DNA of 64,000 nt from Aquimarina longa SW024. GTDB lineage: Bacteria > Bacteroidota > Bacteroidia > Flavobacteriales > Flavobacteriaceae. Under the pieces are notes generated by a model. The model ran no database searches, had not been told where the DNA came from, and worked only from the letters and a program-made list of their open reading frames with translations. Position numbers and translations under genes: made by a program. Of the stretch, positions 1,291-22,963 are shown one piece after another (positions within the stretch are counted from its first letter, which is position 1; every line of letters begins with the position of its first letter). The stretch lies in the NCBI RefSeq assembly GCF_001401755.1, contig NZ_AVQK01000018.1:124001-188000 (forward strand), given 5' to 3'.

Positions 1291-1407
1291 ATTTTATGGA
1301 AAAACAGGGTCCAGTGCCTCATTAGCCTACTTTAAAAATAACTGAAAACTGTTTTCGTGAGCATTCGATTTTGCTATATTAGAGGCTATAACATTTCTTT
1401 TAAATCT

Positions 1408-3906
1408 ATGGCAGACCTATTCACACGACCTTCATCAAAAATTGATAATCAAGAACTCTTTTTTAAATTGTATAATACTAAAGATGAAGAAGATTTATTA
1501 AACATAATAGACCTTTATCCTACAATATTTGATGACTCAAACTGGAAACCATTGGGTGGAAATTTCAGTAATTATGGTGTGGTAAAAAATCAACAATCAA
1601 GTCCTATTGCCGCGTTAATAGAAAAAGTCACTAATGCCATTGATGCTTTACTAACAAAAGAATGCATTCTTTCGGGAATTGACCCAAAATCTGACACTGC
1701 ACCTAAATCTATGGACGAAGCCATTCAAAAATTTTATCCAGAAAATAATTGGGATTTATCTTCATTTCGCAAAGAACAAGCCGAGAATATTCAAATTATT
1801 GCTGACGGTAAAGGGCCGAGAAATCAGCGAAACCAATATCCAACATCTGTAGTAGTTTATGATAATGGCGAAGGGCAGCATCCCGAAAAGTTTGAGGACA
1901 CCTTTCTTTCGCTACTTCGTGGTAATAAGAACGATATTCATTTTGTACAGGGTAAATACAATATGGGCGGAAGCGGTGCCATTGTATTCTGCGGAAAAAA
2001 ACGATACCAACTTATTGCTTCTAAAAGGTACACAAATGATGGTAATTTTGGATTTACCCTGGTACGTGAGCATCCTAAAAAAGAATCTGACCAAGCAAAA
2101 GAAACGTGGTATGAGTACTTACTAATTAATGAAAAAATCCCTTCGTTCACAGCTTCAAAACTAGACCTTGGTCTAAACAATCGTCAATTTGAAACAGGCA
2201 CCATATTAAAACTCTATTCATATCAGTTTCCCAAAGGCTATTCCGGGTTTGCCCAAGACTTGAACCAGAGTATTAATGAGTTTCTATTTCAACCCGCATT
2301 ACCAATTTTAACAGTCGATACCGCTGAGCGCTATCCAAATAATAAAGTTCTGGAAAATGATTTATTCGGTTTAAAGAGGCGTTTAGCAGCTGAGGAATCC
2401 GAATATTTAGACGAGAGCTTTTCAGAGAATTTCTCGGATGATGTCTTTGGTAAGATGAAAGTGTCCTGCTATGTGTTCAAAACCAAGGTAAAGGATTATG
2501 ACCTCAAGAAAACCAAGAAAATCATACAGGACAGGTATTTTAAAAATTCAATGTCCGTTATGTTTTCACTTAATGGACAAACCCACGGTCATTACACTTC
2601 TGAATTTATTACGCGTTCATTAAAGCTAAATTTGTTAAAAAGTCATTTATTGATTCACGTGGATTGTACTGATATGAAGTACAATTTTCGAAAAGAATTG
2701 TTTATGGCCTCTAGGGACAGGCTCAAGGACGGCGATGAAACTCAATTCCTTAGAAGTTATCTGGCAAAAAAATTGAGTGCAAAAGATGGAAGGTTGGCAG
2801 AAATAGAAAAACGCAGAAAACAAGCTGTAGATATTGATACGTCTTCAAATACAAGCGAATTACTCAAAAACTTTACGAAAAATCTACCACTTGATTCTGA
2901 GTTGGCAAAATTGTTGAATCAAACATTCAAGCTTGACATAAAAAAGGAAAAGAAAACTGAGGGAAGGAAGAATCGAACTTCAAATGAAAAAGAACCCACA
3001 CCTTTTGAGCCTAAGAGGTTTCCATCATTTTTTCGAATCGACACTAACAGTAATGATAAAAAAGAAGTTGCTTCAATACCACTTAATGGTGAAAAATCGA
3101 TTCGTTTTTCTACAGATGTAGCCAATGATTATTTTGATAGAATTGATGAACCTGGGGATTTAAGGGTTAGTGTACTCAACATAAAACCTAATGATTCTGA
3201 TGGTGGAAATAAACCTGGTGAACCTAAAGAAATTGATGAAGTTTTTAACGTAGTAAAAAGTAGCCCAAACAAAGGAAAAATAAAAATTTCCCTTAACCCT
3301 AAAGACGAATTGAAAATTGGCGACAGCATTCAAATGAAAGCAAGCCTCTCATCACCAAATGGCAATATAGAGGAATTATTTTGGGTAAAAATTGCCGACA
3401 ACAACAAGCCAAAAAGCGAATCACCGAAAAAAGAAAGCGATAATGATTTGTTGGGATTGCCAAAACTAGTCTTTATGTACAAGAGCACAGATGAGAATTC
3501 TGATACGGACGTAACTTGGGAAGCGGTTGAAGAAGCCACGAGCCTCGATGTAGATTATTCTACTGTTATGATTCCGGATGCTGAAGGCGACTTATTGAAT
3601 CGCATTTTTATCAATATGGACAGTACCGTACTGAAAAATTTCAAATCCAAGGAAAAGAACATCAACCAAGAACAATTAGAATTAGCTAACCGCAAATATT
3701 ACACCTCGGTATATTTTCACACCTTGTTTCTTTACACAATCAGTAAAAACAGAGGATATGAGATTAGGCAAAAAGTAGAGGGCAAAAATGAATTGGAACA
3801 CGTGGATTTAGGCCAATACCTAAAGGATTTGTTTGACCACTACTACTCAACCTTTATTTTAAATTTTGGTGGTATGGAAGCTATGATGCAGGGAATTGGC
3901 GATTAA
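1408..3906 (+). CDS. Large GHKL-fold ATPase at head of phosphorothioation island
   Basis: 832 residues from the ATG at 1408; a GTG start 51 bp upstream is possible but less likely. Three GHKL ATP-binding boxes are visible: N box IEKVTNAIDALL (about residues 71-82), DNGEG (about 151-155) and GKYNMGGSGA (about 182-191), which places it with Hsp90/MutL/MORC-type ATPases. The middle (about 480-640) is charged and low in complexity, and the C-terminal third has no domain I recognise. It precedes the XRE-SspB-SspC-SspD genes by about 130 bp on the same strand but has its own upstream spacer. Defence association is inferred from context. It may belong to the Ssp restriction arm or be a separate defence gene. 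Confidence 0.7.
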   Translation: MADLFTRPSSKIDNQELFFKLYNTKDEEDLLNIIDLYPTIFDDSNWKPLGGNFSNYGVVKNQQSSPIAALIEKVTNAIDALLTKECILSGIDPKSDTAPKSMDEAIQKFYPENNWDLSSFRKEQAENIQIIADGKGPRNQRNQYPTSVVVYDNGEGQHPEKFEDTFLSLLRGNKNDIHFVQGKYNMGGSGAIVFCGKKRYQLIASKRYTNDGNFGFTLVREHPKKESDQAKETWYEYLLINEKIPSFTASKLDLGLNNRQFETGTILKLYSYQFPKGYSGFAQDLNQSINEFLFQPALPILTVDTAERYPNNKVLENDLFGLKRRLAAEESEYLDESFSENFSDDVFGKMKVSCYVFKTKVKDYDLKKTKKIIQDRYFKNSMSVMFSLNGQTHGHYTSEFITRSLKLNLLKSHLLIHVDCTDMKYNFRKELFMASRDRLKDGDETQFLRSYLAKKLSAKDGRLAEIEKRRKQAVDIDTSSNTSELLKNFTKNLPLDSELAKLLNQTFKLDIKKEKKTEGRKNRTSNEKEPTPFEPKRFPSFFRIDTNSNDKKEVASIPLNGEKSIRFSTDVANDYFDRIDEPGDLRVSVLNIKPNDSDGGNKPGEPKEIDEVFNVVKSSPNKGKIKISLNPKDELKIGDSIQMKASLSSPNGNIEELFWVKIADNNKPKSESPKKESDNDLLGLPKLVFMYKSTDENSDTDVTWEAVEEATSLDVDYSTVMIPDAEGDLLNRIFINMDSTVLKNFKSKEKNINQEQLELANRKYYTSVYFHTLFLYTISKNRGYEIRQKVEGKNELEHVDLGQYLKDLFDHYYSTFILNFGGMEAMMQGIGD

Positions 3907-4041: not shown

Positions 4042-4362
4042 ATGGAAACATTGGGTGAATATCTCAGAACACTAAGAGAATTGCAAAATCTGCCTATAAG
4101 AAAAGTTGCAGCGGCACTAGATATAGACCAGTCAACACTTGGTAAATATGAGAGAAATGAGAGGCTTCCCAAAAGAGAGCTTCTGTCAGACTTCGCCTCA
4201 TTCTATAATGTTGCTGTTTCTGAATTGGAAAAAAAATACTTAACCGACAAGGTTGTGTTTACCCTTTTAGAGGAAGAAAATCCAGAGCGTATTTTAGTTG
4301 AATGTAAAGACAAATTGAACTATTTAAAAAATAAAAACGGCGAATCGAAAATAAATGAATAA
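4042..4362 (+). CDS. XRE-family helix-turn-helix regulator of the Ssp operon
   Basis: 106 residues. The N-terminal half is a typical Cro/C1 helix-turn-helix: TLGEYLRTLRELQNLPIRKV, then AAALDIDQSTLGKYERNER, then LPKRELLSDFASFY. The C-terminal 35 residues (EEENPERILVECKDKLNYLK) may be a dimerisation tail. It is the first gene after a clear promoter and overlaps the sspB-like gene by 8 bp, so it is co-transcribed with it. By analogy with restriction-modification controller proteins it probably represses its own operon through the palindrome at 4007-4019. The fold call is firm; the regulatory target is inferred. Confidence 0.8.
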   Translation: METLGEYLRTLRELQNLPIRKVAAALDIDQSTLGKYERNERLPKRELLSDFASFYNVAVSELEKKYLTDKVVFTLLEEENPERILVECKDKLNYLKNKNGESKINE

Positions 4363-5218
4363 ACTAACGTTTACAGGACACGAAACATTTCACTGTCGCC
4401 ATTTTTGGTTGAAGAAGGGATACGATTATCTTTCCAAAGGACAGTCTTTCAAAAACCCTGATGCGGTAACAGCTTTAGGTGTTGGAAAAAATATGGTGAT
4501 GTCCATTAATTTCTGGTTAAAGGCTTTCGGCATAAATGACCGAGAAGACCAAGCCACTACATTTGCCAATAAAATCTTTGATAGTAATGTAGGTTATGAC
4601 CCTTTTTTAGAGTACGAAGGTACGCTGTGGTTATTGCACTATAAATTGTTAGACACCAACCTAGCATCTATTTACCCTTTAGTTTTTAAGCAATTCAGGA
4701 AAAGTAGAGTTAATTCACAATTTACAACCCAGCAACTACTTAGGTATTTGATAAGGGCAGCCACTAACAATGAAACTTCGATAGCTGAAAACTCATTGAA
4801 AAACGACATCAAGGTATTCATAAAAACATACTATCTAGCCGATAAGAATATTAAGGATATGGAAGACGATTTATCGTCCATCTTCATCGACCTCAATCTT
4901 ATTACTAAAGTTACCGATACCGAGGAAGGTTCGGTTTTTCAATTGAAAGTAAGTGAGAGACCAGAGATACCCAAAGAAATATTTTACTTTCTAATCCTAG
5001 ACAAATTCCCAGAGTTTACGTCTATAAGTTTTGATGATATACAAAACAATATAGGTGATGTATTTGCTTGCTCTACTGAAGGTACAGAACTCAAAATTCA
5101 GGAAATATCAGAAGCTTTTAAAGGTGTTGTTTATAAGAAGGATGCCGGTAGAAAAGAAATACAAATTAAAAATATCCCTAACAAGTGGGACATATTAGAA
5201 CGTTACTATAATGTATAA
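4355..5218 (+). CDS. sspB: SspB-like DUF4007 protein (DNA phosphorothioation)
   Basis: 287 residues. The N-terminus (LTFTGHETFHCRHFWLKKGY, then LGVGKNMVMSINFWLKAFGI) is the signature of DUF4007 proteins, which occur beside PAPS-reductase-like DndC/SspD proteins. In the single-strand phosphorothioation system SspABCD, SspB is described as the nicking component. The gene overlaps the XRE gene by 8 bp and the SspC-like ATPase by 8 bp, giving a tight operon. I see no classical nuclease motif by eye, so the role rests on family and context. Confidence 0.75.
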   Translation: MNKLTFTGHETFHCRHFWLKKGYDYLSKGQSFKNPDAVTALGVGKNMVMSINFWLKAFGINDREDQATTFANKIFDSNVGYDPFLEYEGTLWLLHYKLLDTNLASIYPLVFKQFRKSRVNSQFTTQQLLRYLIRAATNNETSIAENSLKNDIKVFIKTYYLADKNIKDMEDDLSSIFIDLNLITKVTDTEEGSVFQLKVSERPEIPKEIFYFLILDKFPEFTSISFDDIQNNIGDVFACSTEGTELKIQEISEAFKGVVYKKDAGRKEIQIKNIPNKWDILERYYNV

Positions 5219-8200
5219 GTTTACAACATCCACAAATATTGAGCGTGATGCCGTAAACGACATCAATTACGTAGTTACACCCAATGCAAAAAATGTTTTT
5301 GAGAGAATAGTTTCTGGTTTTCAACAGGGACATCATTCATTTAATATAATTGGCTCTTATGGCACGGGAAAGTCTAGTTTTCTTTGGGCTTTCGAAAAAA
5401 ACCTTAACGACAGAAAACCCTATTTTGCTCACCTTAATGGCCAGTTTAAAGGGGTTCAAAAATTTTCATTCTTAAAAATTATTGGGGAAGCTGCACCCTT
5501 AACAGATGTGCTTAAGAAATCTTTCAAGGTTAAGGAAGATACAACCAATTCAGACCTTATTGAGACGATAAGCAGGCGTGCTACATCACTTAAAAACAAG
5601 GATGAAATATTAGTGATTTTAATCGATGAGTTTGGTAAATTTCTTGAATACGCAGCCAAACACAATCCCGATAGCGAATTATATTTCATACAACAGTTGG
5701 CTGAATTGGTAAATGATTCCAATAGAAATATTATTTTAATTACGACGTTGCATCAAAATTTTGGTTCTTACGCCATTGACCTATCTCAAAACCAAAAGAA
5801 CGAATGGGATAAGGTCAAAGGTAGACTAATTGATATCTCATTTGACGAACCTATTGAGCAGCTACTTTATCTAGCATCCGAAAGAATAGAAGGTTTGAAT
5901 ATTAAAAAACCAAAGCAAATTGGTTTTCAAAATTTATTCAATACAATAAACGAAAGCAAATTGGTGAGCAATTCAGAAACTCTGAATTATGATTTAGCCA
6001 ATAAACTTTATCCATTCGATATTTTATCAGCAAATGTCTTGGCTCAGTCTTTACAAAAGTATGGTCAAAACGAAAGGTCTTTGTTCTCTTTTTTGGCTAA
6101 CAGTCAAGTTTTCTTTGATAAAATAGATGAAGACAATCATACATTTTTTAGTGTAGCTGACGTATTTGATTATCTAACACTTCATTTAACTAGTGAATTA
6201 GAAGATAGATATTCAAACCCACACAAGCCTCAATGGAATACCATCATAAAGGCGTTGGACAAGGCAGAGGCTATAAACGATATTGGATATGAGCATTTAG
6301 CCAAAATCATAAAGACCATTGGCTTGGTAAACTTATTTGCAAAATCTTTCGGTAGGCTGGATAAAACTTTCCTAGAAAATTATGGTAAGTATGCCTTAAA
6401 CATTCCTGATTCCGAAAAATATATTGAAAAGCTCATAAGTCAAAAAATAATTAAGTTCTATAATTATCGTAATAAGTTTTTCTTTATTGACGGAACGGAT
6501 GTTGATGTAGAACAGGAATTGATTGACGCAAGTTCACATATTGATACCGCCATCAACATTGCTTCAAAAGCCAGATATTATTTTAAAGAAAAATATCATT
6601 TTACCAAGGAAGCTTATTTTGAAATTGGCACCCCAAGGTTCTTCAAGGTAAATGTATCGGATTACATAGAAAACATTAAACCTGAAGGGGGAATTGACGG
6701 CTACATACATATAATTCTCAATAAAGACATAAAACAAAAGGATTTAAAGAATACCGATGTCCAACAACCGGCACAACTATACGTACTTCTCAAAGACTTT
6801 GAATTTGTAAAGTCTTGTATCTATGAAATCGAAAAGATGGATTTTGTATTACAAAAGTATGCAGAGGATAATGTTGTAAAAAAAATACTAACGGAAGAGA
6901 AAGCCCACGAAATAGAAAAACTGCAAAAACTTTTAGAATATGGTATTTATGAAAAATCTAATGCTGATTGGTTCTATGATGGTAAAAAACTCAAAATTGA
7001 TTCAAAGGTAACCTTAAACAGAAATCTTTCCTTAATAGTAAAAAAAGAATATCCTGACACACCTTGTTATTTAAACGAGATGGTCAATAAAGAGTATTTA
7101 AGCACCCCTATTCTAACCGCACGTAAAAACCTCTTGAAGGATTTACTGCAGTATAGCGAAGAGGAAAACTTAAATTATGATGACCACAAGTTTCCACCTC
7201 AAAAATCCATTTATCTGGGACTTATAAAAGAGACAGGAATACACCAGGCTCAAACCAACGGATATATTCTCACTGAGCCTACGAATTCTAGTTTTAAACC
7301 GCTATGGAAACATTGCAATAATTTCTTAGAGGATTCAAAACATATTAAAAAGAACTTGTCTGAATTATACGAATCGCTATCTAAACCACCATTTAAACTT
7401 AAGAAGGGGTTCATAGATTTTTGGATTCCTATATTCCTTATTGTAAAAAATCAAGACTATGCACTATTTCACAAAGCTTCTGGTTATGTCCCTTACCTAA
7501 CCAGTGAAGTTCTTGACCTTGTGCATAAGAAACCTTCCGATTATGAATTAAAATCATATAAGATTGAAGGCGTAAGACTAAACCTTTTCAATAAATACAA
7601 AGAGATTACAGGTGTTAATACATCTAGTAACAAACCCGAAAGTTCGCTGATTTCTATTTTCAGTAGTTTCATAGCGTTTTATAATGCCCTACCAGATTAC
7701 GTTAAAAAAACCAATCGATTAAGTCCATCGTCTAAAGGCTTGAGGGATGCTATTGCATCTGCAAAGGATCCAGAAAATGCGCTACTATCAGAAATACCTA
7801 AAGGATTAGGATATAAAAACATTAACCTCGAAGAAAATGATAGTGAAATCCTAAATGACTTCATTGAACGCTTAAATGGCGCAATCAGTGAAATTAGAAT
7901 TGCCTACGAAGGTTTGTTAAACAGGTATGAAGAAAATATATGCGACGCTCTAAATCTGAAAATTAATGATTTTACAGATTACAAAAGTAAAATTCAAGCA
8001 CGTTACAAGTCATTGAAACGACACTTGTTGATTCAAAAAGAAAAAGTCTTTCTTAACCGTATAATGTCCAAACTAGACGAACGTGATTCTTGGCTAAAAT
8101 CCATTGCTGATGTGATTCTTGGAAAGTCTATCGAGAAAATGAATGATGAAGACGAAGCCGTTTTGATGGACAATACAAGAAAGATATTCTCAAATTTAGA

Positions 8201-8435
8201 TAATCTATTGGAGTTACATTCTTTGGCAAATGATACTGTAAATAATGAAATAGTACAATTTCAACTAACAGATATCTCAGGTAGAACCATAAAACAAAAT
8301 ATCGTTCTGAGTGCTTCTGAAGAAAAGAAAGTTTCAGAATTACAGAAAGGTTTAGCCAAGGTACTATCCAAAAATGACAAATTGAGTGCAGCTGCTATAA
8401 TTAGATATTTAAAAATTTTGCACGATGAAGGTTAA
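5211..8435 (+). CDS. sspC: SspC-like large P-loop ATPase
   Basis: 1074 residues. Walker A GSYGTGKSS is at residues 48-56 and Walker B ILVILIDEF at about 133-141, followed by a long helical, charged region. Size, P-loop position and placement between DUF4007 and the PP-loop sulfotransfer gene match SspC of the SspABCD pathway, in which ATP hydrolysis is needed for sulfur insertion into the DNA backbone. The last 11 bp overlap the start of the sspD-like gene. The middle (residues 500-900) has no domain I recognise. Confidence 0.7.
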   Translation: MYKFTTSTNIERDAVNDINYVVTPNAKNVFERIVSGFQQGHHSFNIIGSYGTGKSSFLWAFEKNLNDRKPYFAHLNGQFKGVQKFSFLKIIGEAAPLTDVLKKSFKVKEDTTNSDLIETISRRATSLKNKDEILVILIDEFGKFLEYAAKHNPDSELYFIQQLAELVNDSNRNIILITTLHQNFGSYAIDLSQNQKNEWDKVKGRLIDISFDEPIEQLLYLASERIEGLNIKKPKQIGFQNLFNTINESKLVSNSETLNYDLANKLYPFDILSANVLAQSLQKYGQNERSLFSFLANSQVFFDKIDEDNHTFFSVADVFDYLTLHLTSELEDRYSNPHKPQWNTIIKALDKAEAINDIGYEHLAKIIKTIGLVNLFAKSFGRLDKTFLENYGKYALNIPDSEKYIEKLISQKIIKFYNYRNKFFFIDGTDVDVEQELIDASSHIDTAINIASKARYYFKEKYHFTKEAYFEIGTPRFFKVNVSDYIENIKPEGGIDGYIHIILNKDIKQKDLKNTDVQQPAQLYVLLKDFEFVKSCIYEIEKMDFVLQKYAEDNVVKKILTEEKAHEIEKLQKLLEYGIYEKSNADWFYDGKKLKIDSKVTLNRNLSLIVKKEYPDTPCYLNEMVNKEYLSTPILTARKNLLKDLLQYSEEENLNYDDHKFPPQKSIYLGLIKETGIHQAQTNGYILTEPTNSSFKPLWKHCNNFLEDSKHIKKNLSELYESLSKPPFKLKKGFIDFWIPIFLIVKNQDYALFHKASGYVPYLTSEVLDLVHKKPSDYELKSYKIEGVRLNLFNKYKEITGVNTSSNKPESSLISIFSSFIAFYNALPDYVKKTNRLSPSSKGLRDAIASAKDPENALLSEIPKGLGYKNINLEENDSEILNDFIERLNGAISEIRIAYEGLLNRYEENICDALNLKINDFTDYKSKIQARYKSLKRHLLIQKEKVFLNRIMSKLDERDSWLKSIADVILGKSIEKMNDEDEAVLMDNTRKIFSNLDNLLELHSLANDTVNNEIVQFQLTDISGRTIKQNIVLSASEEKKVSELQKGLAKVLSKNDKLSAAAIIRYLKILHDEG

Positions 8436-9555
8436 ACACGTACTTGGAATTTCTGGAGGAAAAGATAGCGCTGCACTAGCACTTTATCTTAAAAATCTAT
8501 ATCCCACTTTGGATGTAGACTATTATTCTTGCGACACAGGAAAAGAATTAAAAGAAACCTATGAACTTATAGAAGCCTTAAACAGCAGGTTAGGTAAAGA
8601 CATTAAAACAATTTTTGCTGTCGAACCAGAAAAAGAAACCCCGTACAAAACCACATTTGACCATTTTCTAGCTGAATATGGTGGTTATCTTCCCTCTTCA
8701 ACTGCAAGATGGTGCACCAAAAAACTAAAGTTAGAACCCTTTGAGAAATACATTGGTGATGAGCCTACAATATCATACGTGGGAATACGAGGAGATGAAA
8801 ACAGAGAGGGCTATATATCCAAAAAAACCAACGTGCAATCTATTTTTCCGTTTAGAAAAAATATTTGGAGCGAAGACGTTATAAAAGAAGTGTTGGTTAA
8901 TAATAATATTCCAAAGATTGCAAAACTATATAACAGTCTAAGTCCAAACCATTTAAAAGAAGATATTCTCAATAGGGTCAATCAGCCTATTTCACCGAAC
9001 TTTAGGCAAGGGCAAAAATTAGAATTCCTTTTAAATAGTGATGTAAAATTATTTAATCGAGTGGTATTTGAGTATTTAAAAGAAAACACCGATTATCCTG
9101 TAGGCCTTTTAGAAGAATTCCCTTTAATAGATAATGATGAAGTCTTGGTATTAGACGACATCTTTAAAATACTAGATGAGAGTGGTGTTGGTATACCAGC
9201 GTACTATATAAAAAAATCATACCAAGTAGAAATTGATGGTAAAATAGAAACTGGCACCTATTCTCGAAGCAGGTCGGGTTGTTTCTTTTGTTTTTACCAG
9301 CAAAAAATAGAATGGGTTTGGCTCTTGGAAAATCATCCAACCTTATTTAAAAAAGCTATGGTATATGAAAAAGACGGTTACAATTGGATGGATAGCGAGA
9401 CCTTAGAAGAGCTGTCTAAACCAGAACGAGTTAAAGCCATTAAAAAAGAACATTTTACGAGAATGAAAAGGCAGCTTAGCAAAAGAACCACCAACAGTTG
9501 GAAAGATGAAATTATTGAAGCGGAAGGTCTTGGTTGTGCTAGCTGCTTCATTTAA
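8425..9555 (+). CDS. sspD: SspD/DndC-like PP-loop (PAPS reductase family) sulfurtransferase
   Basis: 376 residues. The PP-loop SGGKDS is at residues 10-15. Cysteines at C97 (ARWC), C286 and C289 (GCFFC), and C371 and C374 (GCASC, at the C-terminus) could hold an iron-sulfur cluster and act in persulfide transfer, as in DndC. The family activates the DNA backbone by adenylation with ATP and accepts sulfur from a cysteine desulfurase. It overlaps sspC by 11 bp and is followed 11 bp later by the MORC-like ATPase gene. The C-terminal GCASC pair at the very end is worth noting as a possible sulfur carrier. The family call is firm. Confidence 0.8.
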   Translation: MKVKHVLGISGGKDSAALALYLKNLYPTLDVDYYSCDTGKELKETYELIEALNSRLGKDIKTIFAVEPEKETPYKTTFDHFLAEYGGYLPSSTARWCTKKLKLEPFEKYIGDEPTISYVGIRGDENREGYISKKTNVQSIFPFRKNIWSEDVIKEVLVNNNIPKIAKLYNSLSPNHLKEDILNRVNQPISPNFRQGQKLEFLLNSDVKLFNRVVFEYLKENTDYPVGLLEEFPLIDNDEVLVLDDIFKILDESGVGIPAYYIKKSYQVEIDGKIETGTYSRSRSGCFFCFYQQKIEWVWLLENHPTLFKKAMVYEKDGYNWMDSETLEELSKPERVKAIKKEHFTRMKRQLSKRTTNSWKDEIIEAEGLGCASCFI

Positions 9556-9566
9556 AATATAAATAT

Positions 9567-11333
9567 ATGAGTGATAAAATCGATTTATCCATAGATGCCG
9601 GTAGGCTTCTTTTTGGATTGAGCAGAATTGGCTACACAACTTCCGCCGCCATTTGTGATATTATAGATAACTCTGTAAGAGCAAATGCAAACAACATACA
9701 CTTATTAATCAAAAAAGAACGTGAAGATTTTTCTGATAGTAAGAGGAACAATGTCAAGGAATATATCATCATAGACGATGGCGATGGTATGGACGCAAAT
9801 GCAATCGAAGAGGCATTAAAACTTGGCTCAACAGATGACCATTATGACGATAAGTCCCTATCAAAATTTGGCTTGGGTTTAAAATCAGCTTCATTTTCTC
9901 AGGGTGATGTACTCAAAGTTATTTCTTCGAATGGTAGTGGATTTAATAAGTATGAAGTCTCTCTTCCAAAAGTAATGGACGCAAAAGAATACTTTGCAGA
10001 AAAGACTGAAATTGACGAGAATGAATCTGAACTAATTGATACCTATCTAAAAGAAGGCAAAGGCACCATCATTATTATTTCTGCTATTCGATTAAACAAC
10101 CATCCAAGTGTTAGAAATACCATTAAAGAACTTAAAACAAAAGTTGGTGTCATTTATTTCTATTTCCTATCTGAAAGCGGAATCAATATTACGATTGGTG
10201 ACAAAAAAATAGATGCCATTGACCCGTTGTTTGTAGCTGAAGCCAACGAAAATGGAAACTTGAATGAAAATGAATGGGACGGAACCGAAGTGCAATGGAT
10301 AGAAAAACCAAAAGAGCTTACCCTTGATGATGAACTACAAATAAATGTCACTATTGAGATAACGCAACTTCCTTATCCACCTATTTATAGAATTAAAAAT
10401 ATAGGTGAGTCGAGAGACAAGGAAGTGCGCGAAAGATATTTAATTGAAGCAGGCAACTATGGTTTTTATGTGTATAGAAATAAAAGACTGATATCTTGGG
10501 CTTCAAACCTACAAGGTATTATCCCATACGACCAAGATTTTTATGCCTTTAGGGGAAGAATACTTATCAATGACGAGGCAGACGATTTCTTCAATATTGA
10601 TGTAAAAAAATCCTCGCTAACTCTCTCTGAAGAAGCCTTTAGAAATATTAGTGATTTTGCCAAGGAAGCTAAAAGTAAAAGTAAGGCAGCTTGGAAAAAC
10701 GCAGGTAAGATAAGTCGTGACATTATAAATAAAGCACCTAATGAAATCGCAAATAAACTCTTAGAAGAATTTGAACAGATAGAAATTCTGCCAGGTGATG
10801 ACCTACCCGATGAGGAAATAGCTTTAGAGCGATTAAAAGCCATCACGGACGATATGACCTCAAAAATCAAGTGGATAATTAAAATGATGAAAGAGGATAA
10901 GGGTGAAGAAGTGGATGATGTAGATGATGACTATACCGATGATGAAAAAGAAGAGGCCGTTAAAGGTGAAAAGAATCCTAACCTCACGAAGATATTCAGG
11001 GTATCATCTGTTGAAGACAACCTTTTGTGGGAACCTTACTATGATACCGATTTAGGTAATTGTGTAAGGATTAATAAAATTCACCGATTTGCAAGATTAA
11101 TCTATGAAGATAACGCCGAAAATAGAGATTTACAGATTCTCTTCGATTTAATGATGCTTCAATTTGCCGATTCCGAATTATACGCCTACAAGAATATTGA
11201 AAAATATGAATACGACGACCTAAAAGTTATTTTACGCGAATCCAGAAGAATAGTATCAGAATTTCTTGCCAATATGTGCCGAAAACTAGAGAACGATTTG
11301 CCACCAAATTACAGTGAAGAAAAGTATGCTTGA
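9567..11333 (+). CDS. MORC-like GHKL ATPase linked to the Ssp operon
   Basis: 588 residues. GHKL boxes: AAICDIIDNSVRA (27-39), DDGDGM (70-75) and SKFGLGLKSASFS (about 99-111), most like MORC/MutL-type ATPases. An acidic stretch (EEVDDVDDDYTDDEKEE) lies near residue 450. It starts 11 bp after sspD and its last 20 bp overlap the GIY-YIG gene, so it is in the same transcription unit. The domain pair (ATP-gated clamp plus small nuclease) suggests the restriction arm acting on unmodified DNA. I cannot tell from memory whether it corresponds to one of SspF, SspG or SspH; SspE-type DUF262/DUF1524 features are not seen. Confidence 0.75.
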   Translation: MSDKIDLSIDAGRLLFGLSRIGYTTSAAICDIIDNSVRANANNIHLLIKKEREDFSDSKRNNVKEYIIIDDGDGMDANAIEEALKLGSTDDHYDDKSLSKFGLGLKSASFSQGDVLKVISSNGSGFNKYEVSLPKVMDAKEYFAEKTEIDENESELIDTYLKEGKGTIIIISAIRLNNHPSVRNTIKELKTKVGVIYFYFLSESGINITIGDKKIDAIDPLFVAEANENGNLNENEWDGTEVQWIEKPKELTLDDELQINVTIEITQLPYPPIYRIKNIGESRDKEVRERYLIEAGNYGFYVYRNKRLISWASNLQGIIPYDQDFYAFRGRILINDEADDFFNIDVKKSSLTLSEEAFRNISDFAKEAKSKSKAAWKNAGKISRDIINKAPNEIANKLLEEFEQIEILPGDDLPDEEIALERLKAITDDMTSKIKWIIKMMKEDKGEEVDDVDDDYTDDEKEEAVKGEKNPNLTKIFRVSSVEDNLLWEPYYDTDLGNCVRINKIHRFARLIYEDNAENRDLQILFDLMMLQFADSELYAYKNIEKYEYDDLKVILRESRRIVSEFLANMCRKLENDLPPNYSEEKYA

Positions 11334-11778
11334 GACTAGTATTATGGGGGCATTTAATGGTGCAGACCAAGCTTATATCTACATCTGGCTTTCCAAAAAA
11401 CACAAAATTGTTTATGTAGGAATGACCAACAGTTATACTGGTACAATTGGTAGAGCCGGTGCACACTTTAATAGAAAGGGAACTTTGAGAAAACGATTTA
11501 ATGAAACCCGGGGCTATGAGGTAAATGATGTAGACGACATATTACTTCTATCCTTTCCATTGCCTAAAACAAGAGAATTTATATCAGTTGAGAAATCATA
11601 TAGGGAAGCTGTTGAGTATTTGGTACAAAAAGAGTTGATATTGTTACGCGGTAAGCTCAATCCCACTTTTGATGTTATCTCTTGGGTAAGACTAAGTCCT
11701 AGAACAGGAAATTCGAGAATCAAAAGATTAGCAGCTGAAATAGTAAATTCTTTTGAAACTAACTATTCTCGTTTTTAA
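11314..11778 (+). CDS. GIY-YIG-type nuclease, partner of MORC-like ATPase
   Basis: 154 residues. The strand pair YIYIW (21-25) and IVYVGMTNS (32-40), followed by GRAGAHF (46-52) and a later EYLVQKELILLRGKLNPTF segment, matches the GIY-YIG layout (Tyr, Tyr-Val-Gly, Arg/His, Glu, Asn). The start overlaps the ATPase gene by 20 bp; internal Met11 is a possible alternative. The end overlaps the convergent cysteine desulfurase gene by 20 bp. Likely a DNA-cutting or nicking subunit worked by the upstream ATPase. The family call is by eye and moderately sure. Confidence 0.6.
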   Translation: MKKSMLETSIMGAFNGADQAYIYIWLSKKHKIVYVGMTNSYTGTIGRAGAHFNRKGTLRKRFNETRGYEVNDVDDILLLSFPLPKTREFISVEKSYREAVEYLVQKELILLRGKLNPTFDVISWVRLSPRTGNSRIKRLAAEIVNSFETNYSRF

Positions 11779-12889
11779 GGGCATTGATTAAAATATCTAA
11801 ATGTGATTGAGATGTGGGGCTTCCAAAGCTTATTCTGATGCTACTTTCGGATTCTTCCTTAGTTAGTCCCATACTTTTAAGCACGTGGGATTGTTGCAAT
11901 AATCTAGAATTACATGCAGAACCCATTGATACCGAAACTGTGTTTTTGTGCTTTAAAATAAATGACTCTGCATCTTGATTTGCCAGTTGTATATTAAGAA
12001 TATAAGGACTTCTGCTCGCTGAAAATCCATTGACGGTTCCAAGTTCAAGTTGGTATAATTCTTGGGTCAAATACCTATTTAATTTTTGAATCTTATCGTA
12101 GTTTACATGCAATTCGGACTTTGCCAGTTCACTTGATTTCCCTAACCCTACAATTCCAGGAACATTTTGAGTTCCTAAATTTACGGATTCAATAAGTCCC
12201 TTAACTATTACGCCTGATTTAGTTTTAGCAGTTGTATTGACTAATAAGCCACCGATACCTTTAGGCCCATAAATTTTATGCGCATTAAAACAAAGTAAGT
12301 CTATATTTTTATCTTGAAAGTTGAGCGGAAGTTTTCCATAAGATTGTGTCGCATCCGTAAAAAAAAGAACATTATGTTTCTTGCATATAGTACCAATATC
12401 CCCAATATCGGCAATAACACCGGTTTCATTGTTAACGTGCATTAATGCTACAAGTATTGTATCACTTCCAATACTATCTTCCAGTGAACTTGTGTCTAAT
12501 TTTCCATTGTCATCAACATCAAGATAGGTTATCCGAGCACCGACTTTTTCTAAATCCTCACACGTATCCAAAACTGCTTTGTGCTCTGCTCTGGAAGTGA
12601 TTATATGGTTTCCTGCATCTAAACTATTGTAGAAAACTTGACTTATGGCCAACTTGATGGATTCCGTTGAACCACTAGTAAAGAAGACCTCATTCTCTTT
12701 ACAATTCACAAGTCTTGAAACTTGATTTCTGGCTTCTTCAATCGCTTTAGAAGCTCTTTCCCCCTGTTTATGAGTACTACTAGAGGCATTCCCATAGTAA
12801 TTAAGAAAGTACGGCGACATTGCCTTGTAAACTTCCTCGTTTACAGGTGTTGTTGATGCAAAATCAAAATATATTGGTTCTTCGTTCAC
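11759..12889 (-). CDS. sspA: Cysteine desulfurase (SspA/DndA/IscS-like)
   Basis: 376 residues, class V PLP enzyme. The PLP lysine is K205 in CFNAHKIYGPKG, the persulfide cysteine is C326 in MGSACNS, and TDATQSYGKLP is the conserved aspartate loop. It removes sulfur from L-cysteine and would pass it to the SspD-like protein. It is transcribed toward the rest of the island and its 3' end overlaps the GIY-YIG gene by 20 bp, an arrangement that could give antisense coupling. Its own promoter is likely upstream (TAACTTTG -7 box at 12909-12916). A housekeeping IscS role is less likely inside this element. Confidence 0.8.
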   Translation of the reverse strand: MNEEPIYFDFASTTPVNEEVYKAMSPYFLNYYGNASSSTHKQGERASKAIEEARNQVSRLVNCKENEVFFTSGSTESIKLAISQVFYNSLDAGNHIITSRAEHKAVLDTCEDLEKVGARITYLDVDDNGKLDTSSLEDSIGSDTILVALMHVNNETGVIADIGDIGTICKKHNVLFFTDATQSYGKLPLNFQDKNIDLLCFNAHKIYGPKGIGGLLVNTTAKTKSGVIVKGLIESVNLGTQNVPGIVGLGKSSELAKSELHVNYDKIQKLNRYLTQELYQLELGTVNGFSASRSPYILNIQLANQDAESFILKHKNTVSVSMGSACNSRLLQQSHVLKSMGLTKEESESSIRISFGSPTSQSHLDILINALKNENS

Positions 12890-21475: not shown

Positions 21476-22963
21476 CTAATCTTCCCTATCCACAAATTTG
21501 ACTTGGTCTTTAGATGTTAGAACATTTGGAAACATTGGGATTAAATCTTGATTTTTAGACAGTCTCATCTCAATATCATCCCTATTCCACCAAGAAGTCC
21601 AAATTCCTTGAGATAGTAACGATTCGAGTTTTTCTGTAAGTGCTGCGGAAATTTGGGTATTTACGGCTAAGAAAAAGCCCTGTGAATTATGAGTTTCTAC
21701 AGTATCTCGTATATCCAACACTTTCCCTTTTCCGATTGTAGATTTTCCCGATTTGCATTGTCCTACAACTTTAATCAACTTTCTTGGCGGTGTGGTATCG
21801 GACATATATTCATTTATTACATTCCACTCAATAATCAAATCTCTTCCTTTATCACCTTGATTAATGGGTGCTGGTCTTCTAACGCTTTTTACGTTTGGCT
21901 CACGTTCCAATAGTGCCTTAACTAATAATTCGAATTGGTCTGGACAAACTTCTTCTTTCCACAAAAATTGTGCTATTGGAAACAACAGCTCAGATTCTCT
22001 ATTGTGTCGCTCTCTAATGAGCTCTCTTTCTTTTTTATATTCTTCAAATCCACATATTCTACCCAATGCAATAATATAATCTTCCATTACCGTAACGACC
22101 ATATTTTCCATAGGAATCACGGGGTATCCTTTTAGTTTCCCTTCTTTATTGATAATATTGAAATATTCGTCCAGTTCAAATCTCGTATCATCGTGAACAA
22201 AGTTTTTTATGTTATCGCTTAGCACAAATGTACCATTCTGTCCTTTTAACTGTTCAGTTTTATCTGTACACAAATCTAATGTTGCGTAGAGAAACTTTGC
22301 GAGACTACTGGATTTAATCATCGTAACTTCCTCTTCTATGTCATAGAAATATACCCATTCTGGTCGTTCACGATCCCTATAATTATTTCGGCTAGATATA
22401 CTATGCAAATGTGAAAATATGTCCTCAACATCTTCGAAAGAGTATTTATAGTTTGAGTTATCAATATTTCCAGCAGTCATACATTTATCACAAGGGCAAC
22501 CTGCAAAATACCATAAGCTTTCTCGCCAAAATGCGACCATTTTTATTATTTCCTTGACAACCTCAAAGAGTTGTTTGGCAGTCGAAATTCCATGTAAAAT
22601 TGGGGCTTGGACTGGTATCAAATATCTTCCCCATATTTCATCTGGAACAACAGGATGGCCAATATCAAATTGCTCACAGGAAATTCCCGACTTATAGAAC
22701 CTTAAGAAAGCCGTAAACATCAAGCTTAGAATTACGTGAGCATCCGATCTATCGCCGGTATAAAACACATCGTAAGTTCGTTGCAGAAAGTAGAATGATA
22801 AATTGTGGTTCTCATCAAGTTGAAGGAAAAGTGTGATTCCTGAAGACTGATCTGTATAAATCTTAAAGTTATTATCGTGTGATTCTTCTAAAGTAAGTGA
22901 ATATTCATCACATTCCTTTTGAACAATTTTCTCTAAATCTATTATTTCTTCTTTGTTAACCAA
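21476..22963 (-). CDS. Mrr-like PD-(D/E)XK restriction endonuclease
   Basis: 495 residues. The C-terminal third has a restriction-endonuclease fold: FELLVKALLEREP (about 340-355), GDKGRDLII (about 369-377, metal-binding Asp) and VGQCKSGK (about 398-405, the QxK pair), as in Mrr-type enzymes. The N-terminal two thirds are not recognised but hold a CPCDKC cluster near residue 155 that could bind zinc and sense a target. It is last in a minus-strand row of three genes behind a GIY-YIG protein and a GHKL ATPase. Likely a nuclease effector of a defence module. Confidence 0.65.
   Translation of the reverse strand: MVNKEEIIDLEKIVQKECDEYSLTLEESHDNNFKIYTDQSSGITLFLQLDENHNLSFYFLQRTYDVFYTGDRSDAHVILSLMFTAFLRFYKSGISCEQFDIGHPVVPDEIWGRYLIPVQAPILHGISTAKQLFEVVKEIIKMVAFWRESLWYFAGCPCDKCMTAGNIDNSNYKYSFEDVEDIFSHLHSISSRNNYRDRERPEWVYFYDIEEEVTMIKSSSLAKFLYATLDLCTDKTEQLKGQNGTFVLSDNIKNFVHDDTRFELDEYFNIINKEGKLKGYPVIPMENMVVTVMEDYIIALGRICGFEEYKKERELIRERHNRESELLFPIAQFLWKEEVCPDQFELLVKALLEREPNVKSVRRPAPINQGDKGRDLIIEWNVINEYMSDTTPPRKLIKVVGQCKSGKSTIGKGKVLDIRDTVETHNSQGFFLAVNTQISAALTEKLESLLSQGIWTSWWNRDDIEMRLSKNQDLIPMFPNVLTSKDQVKFVDRED

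Follow-up and report, generated by a model that had tools for sequence, protein, structure and literature searches.

Three restriction branches are distinguished for DNA sulfur marking (phosphorothioation) in a review, namely dndFGH together with sspFGH, sspE, and pbeABCD (PMC12707154). In the SspABCD-SspFGH system of Vibrio anguillarum FF-93, the multi-gene SspFGH arm accompanying the Ssp genes damages DNA without sulfur, and among 2,678 sspBCD strains, 196 had sspFGH, 199 had sspE and another 36 had the two together (PMC8092258). The DndABCDE and DndFGH modules are commonly decoupled as well (PMC10853773), so that many Ssp and Dnd modules are without the known restriction arms. The locus described here lies in a 64,000-nucleotide stretch of Aquimarina longa SW024 (contig NZ_AVQK01000018.1, positions 124,001 to 188,000; hereafter the window), in which an Ssp module is followed by two genes encoding a predicted MORC-like GHKL ATPase (GHKL1) and a predicted GIY-YIG nuclease (GIY), with a second putative GHKL ATPase (GHKL2) at the head of the island (Table 1). 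The GHKL1-GIY pair is shared by two different sulfur-marking systems, Ssp and Dnd, in distantly related bacteria, which makes it a probable new type of antiviral cutting arm working with sulfur marks. On balance, GHKL1 and GIY are read here as the restriction arm of the Ssp phosphorothioation defence, which would act on DNA without sulfur, with GHKL2 as an accessory in some members. If it serves Ssp and Dnd alike, this conserved pair would close some of the gap left by the missing arms, and it is a candidate for testing.

No description of a GHKL-GIY pair was found in the literature searched, subscription papers, preprints and supplements being mostly outside that search. In the available text of papers joining phosphorothioation and GIY-YIG, GHKL was absent, and beyond PMC10853773 and PMC8416521 the mention of GIY-YIG was unrelated to sulfur marking. 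The original prediction had allowed for an SspFGH variant and suggested a profile comparison with SspF, SspG and SspH, and this assignment did not hold: the PADLOC models for the three proteins missed GHKL1, GHKL2 and GIY, although they recognized the real set on a Sinorhizobium plasmid (L129; E-values of 1.7e-198, 1.2e-192 and 0, respectively), and BLASTP detected no similarity in the three pairings compared (GHKL1 with SspF, GIY with SspG, and GHKL2 with SspH). The V. anguillarum system resembles the present locus in combining Ssp genes with a multi-gene arm, but SspF has a Walker A motif and SspH is FtsK-like, and the available text makes no mention of GHKL, HATPase or GIY-YIG (PMC8092258). 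In the A. longa genome, the match to SspH was not convincing, as it extended only over the FtsK end in a frame of 829 aa.

The SspABCD-SspE system shares the modification module, but SspE itself is a sulfur-triggered DUF262/DUF1524 protein (PMC10952713). An SspE variant was rejected, as PADLOC and Pfam detected neither DUF262 nor DUF1524 among the ten proteins scanned around the island, in agreement with the absence of SspE-type features noted originally. Three DUF262 proteins on other contigs of the same genome had HEC-06/Orf5, HEC-05 and NsnA as best models and resembled SspE models weakly; one of them matched SspE models with E-values down to 3.9e-15 over its N-terminus, other models being much better. 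No PADLOC model for DndF, DndG or DndH matched the island proteins at E-values up to 0.1 (a genome-wide search was not made). PbeA, which combines HKD nuclease and SF2 helicase parts in one fusion protein, was not found in the island and gave only 26- and 21-bit matches in the genome.

GIY-YIG genes have been reported in the vicinity of Dnd modules, as URI (GIY-YIG) standalone boundary nucleases near Dnd cores (PMC10853773) and, in a table, as a gene located some genes away from a Rhodococcus Dnd locus (PMC8416521). The Dnd-linked nucleases and PbeABCD of the former source thus recall the present loci through the URI genes near Dnd and through PbeA, found near the pair in six loci (see below); GHKL, MORC, HATPase, MutL, HSP90 and gyrase are absent from its available text. 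MORC and paraMORC proteins in restriction-modification (PMC2292703) are likewise GHKL and S5 ATPases located beside DNA modification genes and nucleases, and the logic proposed for them fits the present loci. Their partners in that source, in contrast, are methylases, helicases, Vsr/restriction endonuclease and HNH proteins, and the terms GIY-YIG, UvrC, URI, PAPS and phosphorothio do not occur in its available text. By profile, the nearest named defence ATPase to GHKL1 was MzaB (101.1 bits with the NCBIfam model and 60.6 with PADLOC, mainly over the ATPase domain), and membership in MZA was rejected against the NCBIfam cut-off of 850. The VcSduA (Shedu type) protein also defends against phage with a GHKL ATPase and a nuclease, and protection was lost when either activity was altered, but it is a single protein with a PD-(D/E)xK nuclease, and no modification genes are named in the available text (PMC12137116).

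Linkage of the pair to sulfur-marking modules

With the matches to the GHKL1 alignment in GTDB and those of genome searches, at least 21 loci carrying GHKL1 and GIY were obtained, window included, the loci being chosen by GHKL1 homology alone. The 21 counted here are those among the matches listed, i.e. the window, L020, L036-L048, L051 and L052-L056 (L021 and L053, from the same genome, were counted once), and all counts on 21 loci with the pair refer to this set. A phosphorothioation module adjoined GHKL1 and GIY in all 21 (16 Ssp and 5 Dnd). In the Dnd-linked loci, which the original prediction had not foreseen, the gene order was dndC-dndD-dndE-GHKL1-GIY. Ten loci (L036-L044, L048) were of the window type, with GHKL1 at least 94% identical; these eleven near-copies, window included, bring the number of separate lineages among the matches listed to about 11.

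The GHKL1 and GIY genes overlapped in 20 of the 21 loci, the exception being L020, with a 10-base gap. GIY started at 11749 in L045, giving a 4-base overlap, and in the Dnd-linked loci, where its exact start is uncertain, every listed candidate start overlapped GHKL1. The identities of the two proteins co-varied (r = 0.98 for 66 pairs from 12 loci; L043 was dropped because of undetermined bases, and L020 and L040 were each present in one of the two alignments), a correlation that is no independent test because the sequences are related. The Ssp-linked and Dnd-linked forms were separate, with 26-30% identity for GHKL1 and 17-27% for GIY, compared with 55-68% for GHKL1 within the Dnd-linked group.

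Among the more distant relatives of GHKL1 without this GIY (39 further loci: L022-L035, L049, L050, L057-L079), at least five were located beside Ssp or Dnd genes (L026, L032, L035, L068 and L069), and all of these except L068 carried a different GHKL gene together with helicase-like and PLD-like genes. As the flanks were unequal and some contigs short, five of 39 is a lower bound.

A nearby PbeA gene was found in six of the 21 loci (L045, L046, L051, L052, L053 and L054; detected with PADLOC in five and with tblastn, in two pieces, in L054), accompanied by a PbeC-like gene in all of them except L051. Its position beyond the pair would suit a backup suicide effector, that is, a silent nuclease destroying DNA once the main system fails, as has been proposed for standalone Dnd-adjacent nucleases including URI (GIY-YIG) (PMC10853773), and the changing cassettes of the slot described in the next section fit backup effectors as well. 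Such a role is nevertheless unlikely for the present pair. GIY is not standalone, the MORC-like ATPase being its partner in 21 of 21 loci (selected by that ATPase), and a search of 395 genomes of the phylum with the GIY profile returned the same pairing, its three strong matches all adjoining GHKL1 and a modification module (11 further weak matches, with E-values of 1e-4 to 1e-3, stand outside that pairing count). Moreover, the pair lies behind the modification genes in the same orientation, and no known main arm to back up was found in the window, based on the island scans and, for SspE, SspH and PbeA, on genome-wide searches.

A probable exchangeable slot behind the Ssp genes

In the same 395 genomes, the SspD profile had matches in 23, of which 21 possessed an adjoining SspB and/or SspC and two (G432 and G500) did not. 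Within stretches of up to about 20 kb, the 21 Ssp loci of this sample contained GHKL1 with GIY (two loci), GHKL2 (five), a GHKL-helicase-PLD cluster (six) and a PbeA-like gene (six, those of L115 and L116 being weak). Three loci (L046, L120 and L122) had SspD proteins 94-95% identical and PbeC/PbeA-like genes beyond the slot (PbeA detected with PADLOC in L046 and L120, and with tblastn in L122). The slot was occupied by GHKL1-GIY in L046, by an open reading frame (ORF) of no known type and an RNase_T exonuclease in L120, and by another GHKL gene and two such ORFs in L122. In L123 (SspD 84% identical), it contained a DndB-like protein and a 174-aa ORF (L123:10828-12610). Unrelated cassettes behind closely related Ssp backbones point to an exchangeable effector slot.

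Repair or chromosome organisation is another field of action of MORC, MutL and GIY-YIG proteins (the latter including UvrC and Slx1), and the pair could accordingly be a helper of modification or repair rather than an effector, nicking or remodelling DNA for sulfur insertion or mending damaged marked DNA. The census makes this quite improbable, since 19 of the 21 Ssp loci of the phylum sample were without the pair in the examined stretch and close Ssp backbones carried other cassettes in its place. In addition, sspB, sspC and sspD were all visible in 15 of the 16 Ssp loci possessing the pair (the stretch of L020 starts inside sspB, and the contig of L051 starts just before sspD, hence sspD alone is visible there).

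Several other proteins were observed around the Ssp genes. A 750-aa protein with two GHKL-type domains (HATPase_c_3 and HATPase_c) was encoded directly behind sspD in L122 (L122:7391-9643), and a 1100-aa protein upstream of the Ssp operon in L123 (L123:1877-5179) matched HATPase_c_3 weakly but the PADLOC model of TmtA strongly (1.9e-259). Nucleoside 2-deoxyribosyltransferase-like proteins stood directly behind sspD in L047 (L047:8987-9418) and L119 (L119:9177-9584), each followed by a protein of about 200 aa, for which no Pfam match was found in L119. In seven loci (L026, L032, L035, L069, L110, L117 and L125), helicase-like and PLD-like proteins were encoded near SspBCD along with a GHKL ATPase of another kind, the helicase-like protein of L032 being assigned to ResIII/DEAD by Pfam; this cluster is possibly another Ssp effector cluster.

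Predicted proteins and proposed mode of action

GHKL1 was encoded by an intact ORF, and its residues D31, D34, N35, D70, G72, G74, G102 and G104 were invariant in 14 sequences. The expectation of a MORC-like ATPase was supported both by sequence and by predicted fold. Against solved structures, the GHKL1 profile matched MORC4 (1.3e-05), MORC2 (2e-04), SMCHD1 (4.4e-04) and MORC3 (2.6e-03), followed at lower ranks by Spc24 (0.05), which matched the helical part in a chance-like way, and by MutL (0.49). In the AlphaFold (AF2) model (mean predicted local distance difference test score, pLDDT, of 71.5), residues 8-381 resembled MORC3 (Z = 22.2, root-mean-square deviation (rmsd) of 3.8 over 303 residues) and MORC4 (Z = 22.0, 294 residues), with lower values for Hsp90 (about 18) and MutL (16.3). 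The GHKL motifs were followed by an S5-type domain, as in MORC and paraMORC proteins, and GHKL1 is thus predicted to be a MORC-like GHKL ATPase with an S5-like domain over about residues 1-385; the C-terminal third, beyond about residue 385, had low model confidence and was barely covered by the fold search, and no new fold is claimed for it.

The frame of the small gene (11314-11778) is real, with a likely start at ATG 11326 and an alternative at GTG 11314. The former, which gives an 8-base overlap with the GHKL1 stop, was retained because L042 keeps the ATG and has no GTG at 11314. Both ORFs and their overlap are thus as first described, and the supposed fusion to the Ssp operon stands in the sense of one operon with sspBCD, not in that of a single protein. 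Residues Y19, Y30, G32, R43, H47 and E97 of GIY were invariant in 14 sequences, Ssp-linked and Dnd-linked alike, and all of these except H47 are taken here to have catalytic roles. The best fold match of the AF2 model (mean pLDDT of 80.4) was the catalytic domain of I-TevI (Z = 7.1, rmsd of 2.8, 87 of 94 residues), followed by PD-T4-3 (Z = 5.0), a restriction enzyme listed among GIY-YIG nucleases in a table of PMC10952713, and by Slx1 (3.2-4.1), the first unrelated-looking row having a Z of 3.2. The GIY profile gave one chance-like match against solved structures (1.1). As a Z of 7 is modest alone, the identity of GIY is argued jointly from fold, motif (tyrosines, arginine and glutamate) and Pfam, and the small gene is accordingly classified, as had been proposed, as a predicted GIY-YIG nuclease.

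Compared with relatives having the same island type, the ratio of nonsynonymous to synonymous substitution rates (dN/dS) was 0.026-0.027 for GHKL1, 0.016-0.040 for GIY (dS above 2 in two comparisons), 0.042-0.051 for GHKL2 and 0.026-0.045 for SspD (four comparisons each), and 0.045-0.115 for SspC (three comparisons). Against the more distant L045, GIY had a ratio of 0.19; synonymous sites were saturated for GHKL1 and SspD versus L045 and L047 and for GIY versus L047 (five values). The low ratios indicate purifying selection on the island genes and, with the recurrence of the pair in 21 loci, speak against a chance arrangement.

The reading of the pair as a restriction arm rests on its constant linkage to modification genes of two types, the gene order and overlap, the intact catalytic motifs, purifying selection and the cassette exchange at one slot. 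In such an arm, SspABCD would place sulfur on the backbone of host DNA, and GHKL1, by analogy with MORC and MutL, should form a dimer once ATP is bound and hold DNA as a clamp or slide along it. Incoming DNA without the host sulfur marks would bring the clamp into its active state and be passed on to the GIY-YIG subunit for a nick or cut, and the marked host genome would stall or release the clamp. Complex formation, the ATP-driven clamp, nicking and the absence of sulfur as trigger are the steps that we infer for this scheme. More tentatively, the pair may be a portable arm in which a MORC-like clamp ATPase and a GIY-YIG nickase read the sulfur state of the backbone and can be attached to single-strand (Ssp) as well as double-strand (Dnd) marking. 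If so, the known roles of MORC-type proteins would for the first time include surveillance of a DNA backbone mark, possibly as a bacterial counterpart of MORC action on marked chromatin, and a MORC-type ATPase working with a mark of known chemistry would give in vitro access to how MORC proteins sense marked DNA.

Several observations weigh against the restriction-arm reading. The Pfam score of GIY was barely above the threshold (23.8 bits for a cut-off of 22.6), and Foldseek returned nothing below 0.001 for its model. Two GHKL1 relatives (L049 and L050, 43% identical over the ATPase part) showed no GIY and no modification module in the visible stretch, and GHKL1-GIY was rare, occupying two of the 21 Ssp loci of the phylum sample. 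In the six loci with a PbeA gene nearby, the pair could be a supplement and not the sole effector. Finally, the sequence features do not discriminate between sulfur as a block and sulfur as a trigger of the pair, the constant linkage to modification genes being explicable by toxicity without marking and equally by sulfur dependence.

This last point bears on a sulfur-sensing effector, which would need phosphorothioate for its activity, be harmless without SspABCD and damage infecting DNA only in marked cells. SspE is reported to act through a sulfur requirement (PMC8092258, PMC10952713), the modification linkage in 21 of 21 loci would fit such a requirement too, and use with Ssp and Dnd alike could mean that sulfur itself is sensed. 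It is, however, rather unlikely here, as the pair showed no homology to SspE or DUF262 and the separation of the Ssp-linked and Dnd-linked GHKL1 groups makes a shared sulfur reader not evident.

Island layout, GHKL2 and mobile setting

The island contained sspB, sspC and sspD, complete and in order, as well as a cysteine desulfurase gene, sspA, based on PADLOC and Pfam, and 11 bases separated sspD from the GHKL1 start (Table 1). Promoter and terminator scans gave about the numbers expected from shuffling (49 compared to 44.3, and 9 compared to 7.0, respectively) and were not used as evidence.

Table 1. Genes of the Ssp island in the window, with positions in the window, strand and supporting evidence.
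Feature	Position	Strand	Evidence and remarks
GHKL2, putative second GHKL ATPase, 849 aa, head of island	1357..3906	+	GHKL motifs in alignment; Pfam below cut-off
XRE-type helix-turn-helix protein, probable regulator	4042..4362	+	Pfam HTH_3 1.1e-11; 8-base overlap with sspB
sspB (DUF4007)	4355..5218	+	PADLOC SspB 1.3e-95; Pfam DUF4007 3.9e-70
sspC (ATPase)	5211..8435	+	PADLOC SspC E-value 0, 1397 bits
sspD (PAPS reductase family)	8425..9555	+	PADLOC SspD 3e-86; Pfam 6.6e-09
GHKL1, predicted MORC-like GHKL ATPase, 588 aa, S5-like domain	9567..11333	+	Pfam HATPase_c_3 2.7e-24
GIY, predicted GIY-YIG nuclease, 150 aa	11326..11778	+	Pfam GIY-YIG 5.4e-05; motifs; I-TevI-like model
sspA (cysteine desulfurase), convergent	11759..12889	-	PADLOC SspA 1.5e-127, DndA 1.2e-125; 3' end overlaps GIY by 20 bases

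The second GHKL protein announced at the head of the island was recovered there. A start at ATG 1408 is suggested by L042 and L044. Residues E89, N93, D96, D169, G171, G173, G199, G204, G205 and G207, forming the E/N/D box, the DxGEG motif and the G-rich motif, were invariant in eight sequences, and the Pfam score was below threshold (19.2 vs 25 bits), so that GHKL2 is a putative GHKL protein by motif and sub-threshold Pfam matches; a sequence search of solved structures, with E-values up to 10 allowed, gave no match for it. In L020 (genome G321), sspBCD was followed by transposase-like ORFs (identified by eye) and then by contiguous GHKL2, GHKL1 and GIY genes, which indicates that GHKL2 belongs to the set. 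Identity to the window was 54% for GHKL2, 53% for GHKL1 and 47% for GIY, compared to merely 22% for SspC, suggesting that the three genes travel together between divergent Ssp backbones.

The GHKL2 profile had matches in 11 of the 395 genomes, and the top six scores (G000, G321, G404, G463, G632 and G531, the genome of the window included) were all in Ssp loci. In the Ssp locus of G531 (L156:4149-10898), sspC (673 aa) and GHKL2 (508 aa) were both shortened and sspD was not seen, so that the modification genes and GHKL2 appear to decay jointly. A role of GHKL2 as obligatory partner of the pair was rejected, as the profile found none in nine other GHKL1 and GIY genomes; the scan was negative in all ten genomes searched, some of which are metagenome-assembled genomes (MAGs) and may be incomplete, the tenth, the L037 MAG, being discounted because its contig begins behind the GHKL2 place. 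GHKL2 is thus considered an accessory component.

No Ssp genes were found in the examined stretch around the five distant GHKL2 relatives (G079, G436, G448, G521 and G330). Two of these five looked methylase-adjacent, judged by eye from protein starts, and in L157 (L157:8933-15205) a distant GHKL2 relative (36% identity) was located near a protein that looked, by eye, like a C5 cytosine methylase, which fits a wider family serving restriction-modification. In L124 (L124:4553-8800), a DndB-like protein and a small protein beside it (174-176 aa across L123 and L124) were encoded directly behind GHKL2, and the Ssp locus L121, also with GHKL2, had a protein-kinase-domain protein beside a DUF262 (GmrSD_N) protein (L121:7177-9244).

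In nine of the ten window-type loci (L036, L038-L044, L048), the DNA in common with the window ran from the first 15 bases of the latter to about 12.9 kb; in L037 it ran from the contig start (3.9 kb), several loci continuing to about 21.2-21.4 kb, with 79-98% identity per aligned piece. Genes for conjugation were located nearby, encoding TraG, TraM and DUF4138 proteins, an integrase, a coupling protein and a MobA-type relaxase. The shared island and its conjugative neighbours indicate that the system rides on a conjugative element of Flavobacteriaceae. GHKL1 relatives on plasmids were distant (at most 30.6% identity among the best 20 of 46 records, none covering 80% of the query), as were those in phages (three records, at most 26.2%, none covering 80% of the query) and viral contigs (five loci, at most 33%). 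As phage and viral sources held distant relatives only, they gave no evidence of phage carriage of the pair.

The nearest named loci among the matches listed belonged to Aquimarina (L036 and L037). L038 (Thermobacterium salinum) and L039 (Altibacter lentus) had identical match figures against the window, which would fit a recent transfer or, alternatively, near-related strains that were named differently. Near the conjugation genes, a weak match to an Mrr-type restriction nuclease (0.00048, just under the cut-off) was present at positions 21476-22963 of the window.

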